Below are positions 4,120 to 58,044 of a stretch of DNA of 64,000 bases, in pieces. Location of the stretch: contig SVBB01000007.1 in the NCBI GenBank assembly GCA_015059105.1, forward strand, positions 1-64,000, in the 5' to 3' direction. The stretch comes from Erysipelotrichaceae bacterium (lineage in GTDB: Bacteria; Bacillota_I; Bacilli_A; RFN20; CAG-826). How positions within the stretch are numbered: the stretch's first letter is position 1; each line of letters starts with the position of its first letter. Below the pieces are notes generated by a model that was not told the origin of the DNA, searched no databases, and saw only the letters and a list, made by a program, of their open reading frames with translations. A program made the translations under genes and the position numbers.

Positions 4120-4731
4120 TTATTTAAAGTATCCACTTTTAAAAAAGTTAGATACTTTCTTTCTCACGCTATCACTAACGCGATAAACCTTATCGGCTTT
4201 CCATTTCGTCAGCATTTTTATTTCTTCGAAATTATATCCTTCGATGAAAGTGAAAAAACCAACTAATCTTTCATCATTCGTGAGTTTTGAATCTTTTGAA
4301 ACGATGAAATCATGAACTAATTTTTTCTCAACAGAATATGAGATTTTATCATCATCTGAGCCGCAGGTTTCATGGAGGGTAAGTCCATCATCAAATAGAC
4401 TAGAATCAAGAGATAAGGGATGGATGAAGTCGTTATTTGAATAAGAATTGTTTCTCACAAAGTTGATGCATTGGTTCTTCGCAATAGTTGTCCAATAACT
4501 ATAAAAAGACTTCTCTTCGTTAGGTGTATATTTCTTTAACGCAATCGCAAGACTGGTAAAAGCAACCGCGGTAAATTCATCCGCGGAAAAACCTAAGTCA
4601 GAATATAAAGAAGCGTACTTTTTGCCAAAATTCTGTGCAAAACTTAGGTATTTTTCACATAACAAAGCTTCAGCATGGGTATCTCCTGTCCTAATTAAAC
4701 TGATGATAGTATCATCATCAATTAAAACCAT
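4120..4731 (-). CDS. Sigma-70 family factor in SigH position
   Basis: A 203-residue sigma factor. Residues of about 25-95 match sigma region 2 (ADEFTAVAFTSLAIALKKY and SFYSYWTTIAKNQCINFVR), and the C-terminal third contains a helix-turn-helix like region 4 (FEEIKMLTKWKADKVYRVSDSV). Gene order cysS-rlmB-sigma is the order found around sigH in Bacillus and relatives, so orthology to SigH is likely although the sequence is strongly diverged. A small hairpin (TTTCTC/GAGAAA) lies between rlmB and this gene, close before the start. Its regulon cannot be inferred here. Confidence 0.8.
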   Translation of the reverse strand: MVLIDDDTIISLIRTGDTHAEALLCEKYLSFAQNFGKKYASLYSDLGFSADEFTAVAFTSLAIALKKYTPNEEKSFYSYWTTIAKNQCINFVRNNSYSNNDFIHPLSLDSSLFDDGLTLHETCGSDDDKISYSVEKKLVHDFIVSKDSKLTNDERLVGFFTFIEGYNFEEIKMLTKWKADKVYRVSDSVRKKVSNFFKSGYFK

Positions 4732-55460: not shown

Positions 55461-56024
55461 CTACACGATAATTTTAGCGTTATTAATTAATTCATCAAAG
55501 CCATCGACTGGACTACTTAATTGTATTTTACCTTTTTTCTGTTGTTTTCCATAAATATCGTCTTCTAAAATAACATATTCTTTATCGGTTTCTTTTTTTA
55601 AAACAATATTGTCCGTGTAACATAGATTACATGAAACATAAATAGTCACGTTGTCGTATAGTTCTAAATGGAGGTATAGTGCGCCAATAGAAAGTAATAA
55701 GTCGGTTTGAGTGTTTTTATAACAATCAATAACATAAATAGAATTAATAACATTATCAAAATAATCAACATTGAGGGTATAAAGATAACCATTATGATCT
55801 ACAAACTGTTTCACCACTTCCTTGAGACCACTTGTTGTTGTCGCAGTTTTATTTATACGAATAATATATCCATCTAAAGGAATATCATTCGTTGTTTCAC
55901 TTGTGGTTAGTTGGTTCGATGAACTTGAAATAGTAGAACTAGGTGATGCTTCAATATTTGAGCAAGCAGTAACGAAAAGTAAAAATGGTATTAAAAGCTT
56001 ATTGTTCATCATCTTTATATTCAT
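55461..56024 (-). CDS. Lipoprotein of the ECF-serpin operon, unknown
   Basis: A 187-residue lipoprotein (lipobox LFVTACSN). A Ser/Thr-rich linker follows, then a small beta-rich domain with CNLC (VSCNLCYTDNIV). No family recognised. AAGGAGGGTTAACC before the ATG overlaps the serpin stop region (two bases apart), so it is the third gene of a sigma-serpin-lipoprotein operon. Surface location together with the serpin suggests a shared envelope role. Confidence 0.65.
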   Translation of the reverse strand: MNIKMMNNKLLIPFLLFVTACSNIEASPSSTISSSSNQLTTSETTNDIPLDGYIIRINKTATTTSGLKEVVKQFVDHNGYLYTLNVDYFDNVINSIYVIDCYKNTQTDLLLSIGALYLHLELYDNVTIYVSCNLCYTDNIVLKKETDKEYVILEDDIYGKQQKKGKIQLSSPVDGFDELINNAKIIV

Positions 56025-56026
56025 GG

Positions 56027-57328
56027 TTAACCCTCCTTACTAATATTAGTTAATTGACCAATAATTAACACAACACCGTCGTTGTTAGTTATTGAATAAA
56101 TAAATGGGCGATTGATAAAAACATTATAGTTATAATCGTCTATAACTTCTATACCACTAGAAGCATCTTCCCCAGTTATTGCTAACGCAGTAACGCCATT
56201 TTCTTTCAACTCAAAATGCGTATTTTGATATAACGACGTATTCAAAACATCATAGTCCAATATATGATTGCTTAAATCAGAGGTATAACCAGTAGAAAAC
56301 ATCGGTATAATCACATTCGCATTTATCTGCTTTTTTTCCATTTTATGAAGCGATAACAAATCCCCATCAAAAGCGACATTAGTATATTTTGAATAAATGA
56401 TATTGAAATCATAACAATGTGACATTGGAATGGAGATAAAATAATTCTCATCTGTTTCCGCGATTGATATTTCTGTATTTTGTGCAGACAAATAATCAAC
56501 ATCGTCAGTAACTGTTTCATCGTCATTGACGAAGGAGTATTTGTTTACCATCTTTTTAAAATCTGTTTTTTGCCAATTTGCTTCAAAAGAGAAACCACTT
56601 ACAATATTTAAATCAGCAAAACTCCATTCCGGATTATTATTCTGCAAAGCATTTTCTTTCAATAGATAATCGCTGACTAGCCTTGCTGTGTCCTCATTAT
56701 TTTTGCCCGATAAATATATTTCACCATAATAATTATTAGAAAGGAGATTAATATAATCTTCACTAAAAGTGTTAAGGATATTTTTATTACCAAATAACCC
56801 TAGATACTGATTTGAATATATGCTATTCCGGTTATCACCAACATGCTTAATAGAGATGTTATTTAGAGCTTTCTTCATCTCGTTTTTGTAATTACCATCT
56901 TTGTATAATAAATCATCCGTTTTAAAATAATCGTTTTTCAAATCATATAGAGCGTATAAAGAATGAACATAAGAAAATGGTGAAACCACTACATTGTCAT
57001 TTCCATCTTCTAGAGTTTTTTGGAAAAACTGTTCACCAACTTTGTTTACGCTCTCTATGAATTCATCAGAAACGTTTTGATGTGATAAATTATAAGGCTT
57101 TGTTACCTCGTTCAACGCATTGCTCTCTAATGTAGACAAAGCAAAAACACCTAAAGAATTAACCGTGACAAGAGAAATAACTATACCAATAATAGTAAAA
57201 CTTATTAGACCAATAAAAACAGATAAAAGCGGCATTTTAATTGCTTTTTTTCCTGCAAAATAAGGGTTTTTTGCATAATTTGAAATTCTTTCGTTTCCAT
57301 AAATACGCATTTTTTGTTTAAACGTCAT
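56027..57328 (-). CDS. Membrane-anchored serpin
   Basis: A 433-residue protein with a short cytoplasmic N terminus (residues 1-33, basic), one helix (about 34-58: LLSVFIGLISFTIIGIVISL) and an extracellular serpin domain (about 85-433). Serpin hallmarks are NVVVSPFSYVHSLYALYDL near the start and, near the end, the hinge FELKENGVTALAITG, a reactive loop and FINRPFIYSITNNDGVVLIIG. By counting from the hinge Glu, the scissile bond would be near SSG-IEV. Hinge residue P14 is Val and P11 Leu, so whether it is inhibitory is uncertain. It overlaps the sigma gene by four bases. Confidence 0.85.
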   Translation of the reverse strand: MTFKQKMRIYGNERISNYAKNPYFAGKKAIKMPLLSVFIGLISFTIIGIVISLVTVNSLGVFALSTLESNALNEVTKPYNLSHQNVSDEFIESVNKVGEQFFQKTLEDGNDNVVVSPFSYVHSLYALYDLKNDYFKTDDLLYKDGNYKNEMKKALNNISIKHVGDNRNSIYSNQYLGLFGNKNILNTFSEDYINLLSNNYYGEIYLSGKNNEDTARLVSDYLLKENALQNNNPEWSFADLNIVSGFSFEANWQKTDFKKMVNKYSFVNDDETVTDDVDYLSAQNTEISIAETDENYFISIPMSHCYDFNIIYSKYTNVAFDGDLLSLHKMEKKQINANVIIPMFSTGYTSDLSNHILDYDVLNTSLYQNTHFELKENGVTALAITGEDASSGIEVIDDYNYNVFINRPFIYSITNNDGVVLIIGQLTNISKEG

Positions 57329-57819
57329 AATAGAACCTTCCTCATTTTTTTCTTAGCCTCGGAGTAGATTTTTTTAGCACTAGATTCTGGGATACCCGTG
57401 GCCAAAACTATTTCTTTCCAACTATAGGAGAACACTGCTCGATAATAAATGATGATAGTCTCCTTGTTGCTTAGCATTGAACCAAGTTCGTTAAGCATAA
57501 GATTATAGCGATCTTCTTCGCCGTATATTTCATCAATCGTATCCGTATAAGAGATCTTGTTATTTCTTAAAAACATTAGGGCTTCATTCCTGGCAATTGA
57601 AACACAGAACGATTTTAAGTTTTTAATATCTTTTATCTCGCTTTTATGTTGGATTATTTTTATGAACGACTCACTTAGTAAATCATCGCAATCATCACTA
57701 TTAGAGACGTATGAGGCAATGACAAAATACATTAGGTTTTTATATTCTTCAAACACTAATCCAGTGGCATAAGGATCACCAACAATAAATTGATGAGCAA
57801 TATTTCTTGAGATGCTCAT
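57325..57819 (-). CDS. ECF-type RNA polymerase sigma factor
   Basis: A 164-residue sigma-70 of the ECF group. Region 2: FEEYKNLMYFVIASYVSNSD, then DDLLSESFIKIIQ; region 4: NKETIIIYYRAVFSYSWKEI, then VLATGIPESSAKKIYSEAK. A strong AGGAGGGATA site fixes ATG at 57819, discarding a longer hydrophobic upstream reading. The next gene, usually an anti-sigma factor, is here a membrane serpin. Confidence 0.9.
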   Translation of the reverse strand: MSISRNIAHQFIVGDPYATGLVFEEYKNLMYFVIASYVSNSDDCDDLLSESFIKIIQHKSEIKDIKNLKSFCVSIARNEALMFLRNNKISYTDTIDEIYGEEDRYNLMLNELGSMLSNKETIIIYYRAVFSYSWKEIVLATGIPESSAKKIYSEAKKKMRKVLL

Positions 57820-58044
57820 TATCCCTCCTAATAATAAGATGCAGTACAATGCCAATTTGTCTAAAATTATTATAATTAATCTCATAAAGAAAATAGACAC
57901 ATAACAACAAATCACTCAACCAACACTAGTAGAAAAAATCGATATAATGATGATCATTATATAGGTATGTCAGTAAGAAGAATTAGCAAAAACAAATGAT
58001 AAAACGGCAGTCAAAGGCGTTTTTTATTGGTAAAAAACCAGAAC

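Follow-up and report, generated by a model that had tools for sequence, protein, structure and literature searches.

A putative anti-sigma receptor with a serpin ectodomain encoded beside an ECF sigma factor gene in an Erysipelotrichaceae bacterium

We propose that an ECF sigma factor and a membrane-anchored serpin, encoded by two overlapping genes of an Erysipelotrichaceae bacterium, form a sigma/anti-sigma module in which the serpin serves as the receptor. The pair lies in the stretch of DNA analyzed here and referred to as the window, i.e. positions 1-64,000 of contig SVBB01000007.1 from the assembly GCA_015059105.1. Taken in full, with an attacking protease as the trigger, this proposal is in our opinion the best explanation of the available data, and we assign to it a probability of about 0.6.

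Architecture of the gene pair

ECF sigma factors comprise only the regions 2 and 4 of the sigma-70 family and are typically 150-200 amino acids long. The 164-residue product of the first gene (see the Table) meets this criterion, and its identity as an ECF sigma factor, claimed previously in a sequence-only reading of this DNA, can be regarded as secure according to profile searches: it matches the Pfam families Sigma70_r2 (E-value 8e-10) and r4_2 (1e-4) and scores above the cut-off of TIGR02937 (sigma70-ECF). The ATG codon of the gene is preceded by a ribosome-binding site, AGGAGGG (~57823-57829).

Table. Features of the ECF-serpin locus in the window
Feature	Position	Strand	Basis or remark
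ECF sigma factor gene, 164 aa	57325..57819	-	Pfam, TIGR02937, relatives 45-58% identical
Gene of the TM-serpin (433 aa), putative receptor and anti-sigma factor	56027..57328	-	shares the bases ATGA with the sigma gene
Region coding for the basic cytosolic tail of 33 aa, putative short anti-sigma domain (class II-like)	57230..57328	-	similarity to tails of same-subfamily partners
Single transmembrane (TM) helix	57155..57229	-	hydropathy; AlphaFold helix 38-59
Extracellular serpin domain (predicted)	56039..57130	-	AlphaFold2 and Foldseek; identity to solo serpin L002; tree
Reactive-center loop region, hinge P17-P8 = E-N-G-V-T-A-L-A-I-T	56114..56203	-	model loop 387-399 of low confidence
Lipoprotein gene, 2 nt downstream of the TM-serpin gene, lineage-specific	55461..56024	-	lipobox LFVTAC

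The sequence-only reading described the second gene as overlapping the first by four bases and as encoding a 33-residue cytoplasmic N terminus, one membrane helix and an extracellular serpin domain, without the HxxxCxxC motif or any other recognizable anti-sigma domain. This description is accurate in all respects. The two reading frames share the sequence ATGA; the N-terminal tail is rich in Lys and Arg and contains neither Cys nor His; and the hydropathy profile places a TM helix at residues ~34-59, in agreement with the model. Class I (ZAS/RskA-type) anti-sigma domains (ASDs) extend over about 100 residues and often carry the HxxxCxxC motif, and the tail of the window protein, with 33 residues, no such motif and no match in Pfam, is not one of them. 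A scan of the tails against Pfam likewise revealed no known anti-sigma domain, including the DUF4179 domain of RsiV. The window protein does exhibit the architecture expected of TM anti-sigma factors, as it adjoins an ECF gene and possesses one TM helix and a cytosolic N-terminal domain.

The serpin motifs of the ectodomain are present but degenerate, and the window serpin used as a single query does not match PF00079 in Pfam and is not recognized by NCBIfam either. Because these searches missed it, we relied on an AlphaFold2 model calculated from an alignment of 60 relatives, 51 of which match PF00079 on their own. The top 50 matches of this model (pLDDT 79) reported by Foldseek in the PDB are all serpins, with E-values down to 9e-19, and its structural neighbors include several cleaved or latent forms. 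On the strength of the model, the ectodomain has kept the serpin fold, with a sequence that has diverged beyond recognition by Pfam.

As to the third gene, said to encode a lipoprotein, the lipobox is indeed there, but a role as a conserved part of the system has to be rejected: a search of 224 genomes of the family yielded no convincing relatives of this orphan, and no conserved third gene was found after the other ECF-serpin pairs.

The only genes with the sigma-70 region 2 in the source genome are those of RpoD, one SigH-like protein and two ECF sigma factors. The second ECF gene (contig C5) is also directly followed by a TM-serpin gene, so that both ECFs of this genome are serpin-linked. 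A separate conventional anti-sigma gene would have argued against the sequence-only reading; however, no other anti-sigma candidate was found beside either ECF gene. The genome also encodes, on contig C21, a solo serpin (positions 1312-2613 of locus L002, by which name it is called below), which is membrane-anchored with ~7 cytosolic residues and located between ffh-like and trmD-like genes. A candidate for a third ECF of the window (4120-4731, minus strand) was rejected as a SigH-like gene from the rlmB/cysS neighborhood; it lies between rlmB/cysS-like genes and genes for ECF-transporter ATPases.

Conservation of the pair and tail swapping

Serpin ORFs were collected by flank retrieval and profile HMM searches, with 224 genomes of the family, 99 of which carry serpins, as the base of the survey. 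Among 135 distinct serpin genes, mostly from this one family, 67 (a few of them from other families of the order) have an ECF gene directly upstream on the same strand, at distances mostly between -10 and +5. Fourteen further pairs were found, of which 10 belong to other parts of the order and four to a different order within the class. The distinct ECF-serpin loci thus number at least 80, in many independent assemblies, and those relatives that bear names come from the rumen and the gut and carry the labels Erysipelotrichaceae, Bacillales or Bacilli. When the search was extended to the class and then to all genomes, none of the 111 unlinked serpin ORFs retrieved had an ECF gene next to it, so that no linkage was detected outside Bacilli. 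Since about half of the distinct serpin genes directly follow an ECF gene, chance is excluded, and the pairing of sigma factors with serpins is confirmed as real and general; lack of conservation in relatives, which would have spoken against the sequence-only reading, can be dismissed. Other TM-anchored serpins without an ECF neighbor were observed in a class-level family, f17 (L235, L238, L257, L258 and L259); their Pfam match is split, suggesting a large insertion.

The comparison of N termini, suggested together with the genome search in the sequence-only reading, reveals a clear difference between the linked and unlinked serpins. The first hydrophobic segment starts at residue 25 or later in all 67 ECF-linked serpins (median 41) and in only 5 of the 63 serpins without linkage (median 4); the majority of the latter carry a lipobox. 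The long tail is therefore essentially confined to the ECF-linked serpins. At each of the 12 other loci with a sigma factor of the window type (45-58% identical), the next gene encodes a TM protein whose tail is related to that of the window protein, and behind this tail the ectodomain is serpin-like in seven loci and unrelated in five. Relative to shuffled-sequence controls, the window tail is similar to the partner tails of the same sigma subfamily, regardless of whether the partner is a serpin (z 2.5-6.9), but not to the tail of L002, the solo serpin encoded in the same genome (z -0.2). For the ectodomain the relationship is the opposite, with z of 13 (31% identity) for L002 and of only 2.6 to 6.0 for the serpins that accompany sigma factors of the window type. 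Because the tail matches the sigma-type partners and the ectodomain is closest to L002, the window protein is, as judged from these comparisons, a chimera of a window-type tail and a stand-alone serpin.

The phylogenetic tree of 130 serpin domains, a quick one with some long branches, groups the window serpin among solo serpins and requires eight changes of state to account for ECF linkage, at least six of which are forced by well-supported branches. Within the main linked clade, one member (L087) has lost both the sigma gene and the long tail and is now a lipoprotein. In 66 pairs, tail similarity tracks sigma similarity when the ectodomain is controlled for (partial r 0.36, permutation p 0.0005); sigma similarity is also correlated with that of the ectodomain, to a degree similar to that of the tail. 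The tail swapping, the linkage, the tree and the covariation are together hard to explain unless the tail contacts the sigma factor, and we infer that the tail is the sigma-interacting part of the protein. Both the swapping of domains and the perfect association of long tails with ECF linkage hence favor the suggestion of the sequence-only reading that the sigma factor is held by the short N terminus. With sigma binding inferred, and its support from tail swapping and covariation indirect, we are nonetheless highly confident that the tail represents a short anti-sigma domain.

Reactive-center loop, proposed mechanism and alternatives

In inhibitory serpins the hinge of the reactive-center loop follows the consensus ExGTEAAAA at P17-P9. 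An inhibitory-type hinge is kept in the unlinked serpins (GxEGAAVT or GxEAAAYT) and, in the canonical form GxEAAAxT, in three small, separately placed linked clades. In the main linked clade the hinge is non-canonical, G[TS]x[VA]KSx[TS], with Lys or Arg at P11, and the hinge of the window serpin (GVTALAIT) does not meet the consensus either. P14 is Ile or Val in the unlinked serpins and Thr or Ser in the main linked clade. Because the inward-facing residues P12, P10 and P8 stay small or compact in all groups, including the linked serpins, insertion of the loop after its cleavage appears plausible. Efficient inhibition of proteases, on the other hand, is doubtful for the main linked clade and the window serpin, as their hinges depart from the inhibitory consensus. 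It is tempting to infer that this pattern fits a sensor that needs the spring, but not necessarily the trap. The loops of the main clade (to which L001, for example, belongs) are rich in Gly, Ala, Ser, Thr and Pro, like a cleavable bait, and 20 of 40 contain the motif [ASTG]AP (2.6 expected from shuffling), e.g. in the form AAAPM. The motif resembles elastase-type substrates and is present also in some solo serpins.

According to the mechanism that we propose, at rest the inner tail of the TM-serpin would bind the ECF sigma factor, while the serpin domain would display its reactive-center loop outside the cell as bait. A protease that cuts the loop or becomes trapped by it would elicit the stressed-to-relaxed transition, and the altered ectodomain would expose the protein to regulated intramembrane proteolysis (RIP), with a site-1 cut followed by that of an M50 site-2 protease. 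Destruction of the tail would then free the sigma factor, leading to transcription of the operon and replenishment of the serpin. The genome encodes one M50 site-2 protease (PF02163, E-value 2e-56), which satisfies the requirement for an anti-sigma factor controlled by RIP. The data establish the gene pair and its architecture, the serpin fold, the conservation, the exchange of tails, the correlated evolution, the promoter shared by the related operons and the presence of the M50 protease. The remainder of the scheme is inferred, without any experiment, namely the binding of sigma by the tail, the protease as trigger, the successive proteolytic steps and the extent of the regulon. Several findings weigh against the proposal: the tails resemble no known anti-sigma family, the hinges of the main linked clade and of the window serpin make inhibition doubtful, the window pair lacks both the promoter of its relatives and a counterpart in the other genome of its genus, and sigma covaries with the ectodomain as well as with the tail. 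That the serpin is the sensory domain we consider probable from the sequence data; that cleavage of its loop by a protease constitutes the signal is an inference that we favor only slightly. Whether the pairs represent a novel type of protease sensor made of a single protein, in which cutting of the loop by a foreign protease would drive ECF-dependent expression and which arose by repeated grafting of serpin ectodomains onto short anti-sigma tails, seems to us an evenly balanced question.

The same protein could also be an anti-sigma factor with a serpin domain that is not inhibitory but merely binds a ligand or forms a scaffold, by analogy to the hormone-binding serpins, in which case the signal would be a peptide, a small molecule or a component of the cell surface. 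This possibility gains some weight from the hinge of the main linked clade and the degeneracy of the window-type serpins, as well as from the use of the same tail with unrelated ectodomains, which indicates that the sensory input is flexible. However, the retention of GxEAAAxT in three separate linked clades, the insertion-compatible inward positions in all clades, and the bait-like composition of the main-clade loops speak against it, and we regard it as unlikely, albeit worth keeping in mind.

One could further argue that the serpin is only the output of the system, i.e. that the ECF sigma factor controls a membrane-anchored inhibitor whose tail is a mere anchor, and that the anti-sigma factor is encoded elsewhere. 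ECFs often regulate the adjacent gene, and solo serpins without an ECF do occur in the same genomes; yet for the unlinked serpins anchoring by a lipobox suffices, the long tail accompanies ECF linkage and is common also to the non-serpin partners, and neither ECF of the genome has another anti-sigma candidate beside it, all of which renders this scenario improbable. As for a chance neighborhood or an assembly artefact of a single metagenome bin, the host genome is a draft and the pair is absent from the one other genome of its genus that we examined, but the recurrence of distinct pairs in independent assemblies, including the named rumen and gut genomes, contradicts such an explanation so strongly that it can be practically disregarded.

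Promoters, related systems and significance

The operons of the C5 type share a conserved promoter motif, CGACAAAA-N15-GTYTTAT, just upstream of the sigma gene. The only exact match in the window's genome is the C5 operon's own promoter, and a genome-wide search with this motif for a wider regulon yielded no more inexact matches than the reversed-pattern control. In the relatives of the window-type sigma, a different motif, TTGAGCAGTTTTC-N-GTCTT, precedes the start codon by 18-19 nt, irrespective of whether the partner is a serpin (leave-one-out score 134 vs 77-83 in shuffles); it is not recognizable upstream of the window pair. Because the conserved promoters sit just upstream of the sigma genes, autoregulation appears likely in the group, although it is not shown for the window pair.

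Among the known systems, the nearest functional analog is RsiV, which is both a receptor and an inhibitor of lysozyme and from which SigV is released via signal peptidase and RasP (PMC5014341, PMC6066255); with the TM segment at residues 37-59, RsiV provides a precedent for a short cytosolic tail (PMC4183432). The SigV-RsiV system of Bacillus subtilis and Clostridioides difficile resembles the window pair in combining an ECF gene with a single-pass anti-sigma factor that has a very short cytosolic tail, and its receptor ectodomain inhibits the attacking enzyme, with site-2 proteolysis as the last step, as we propose for the TM-serpin. On the other hand, the ectodomain of the window protein is a serpin instead of DUF4163/DUF3298, its presumed ligand is a protease rather than lysozyme, and no match to the Pfam families of RsiV (DUF4179, DUF4163, DUF3298) was found in it. 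By analogy, the TM-serpin would act on proteases as RsiV does on lysozyme. In class II anti-sigma factors, of which CnrY of Cupriavidus metallidurans is an example, two helices wrap around the sigma factor (as discussed in PMC7406223). CnrY has an anti-sigma domain about as short (less than ~50 aa) as the one proposed for the window protein, but belongs to a metal-resistance system and has no serpin ectodomain. In the RsgI-type anti-sigma factors, one type of tail is combined with varied, swappable sensory ectodomains. The proteins described here show the same exchange of ectodomains, but their tails do not match RsgI_N, and serpins take the place of carbohydrate-binding modules.

Bacterial serpins that are secreted or are lipoproteins, e.g. 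miropin, act as free inhibitors (PMC8233489). The window serpin has in common with them the fold, the reactive loop and the hinge, but is attached to a cytosolic tail and has a sigma factor as its partner. Known roles of serpins include those of inhibitors, hormone carriers and chaperones. A literature search, which did not cover many subscription papers, revealed no link between serpins and ECF or anti-sigma factors. If our proposal is correct, sensing on behalf of a bacterial anti-sigma factor would have to be added to these roles of the fold, and the pair would be one of the few examples of a signal that consists in a physical event itself, here the cleavage and insertion of the loop. It could explain how small-genome gut Bacilli sense the proteases of digestion or of competitors. 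The pair offers a two-gene test system with more than 80 natural variants and several changes of linkage, and the minimal anti-sigma tail of ~33-50 residues may be useful in studies of sigma capture and in protease biosensors.

ECF partners with non-serpin ectodomains from the same lineage were observed at seven loci (L152, L153, L161, L165, L166, L025 and L027). The non-serpin ectodomains of ECF partners include Big_3, vWA and RsgI-like (L027) domains, as well as several without a match in Pfam, and these proteins suggest that Bacilli with small genomes possess many anti-sigma receptors that are still uncharted. At one further locus (L168, 947-2449, plus strand) an ECF sigma factor and a TM partner with a non-serpin ectodomain are fused in frame into a 500-aa ORF, which could serve for modelling of the contact between sigma and the tail.
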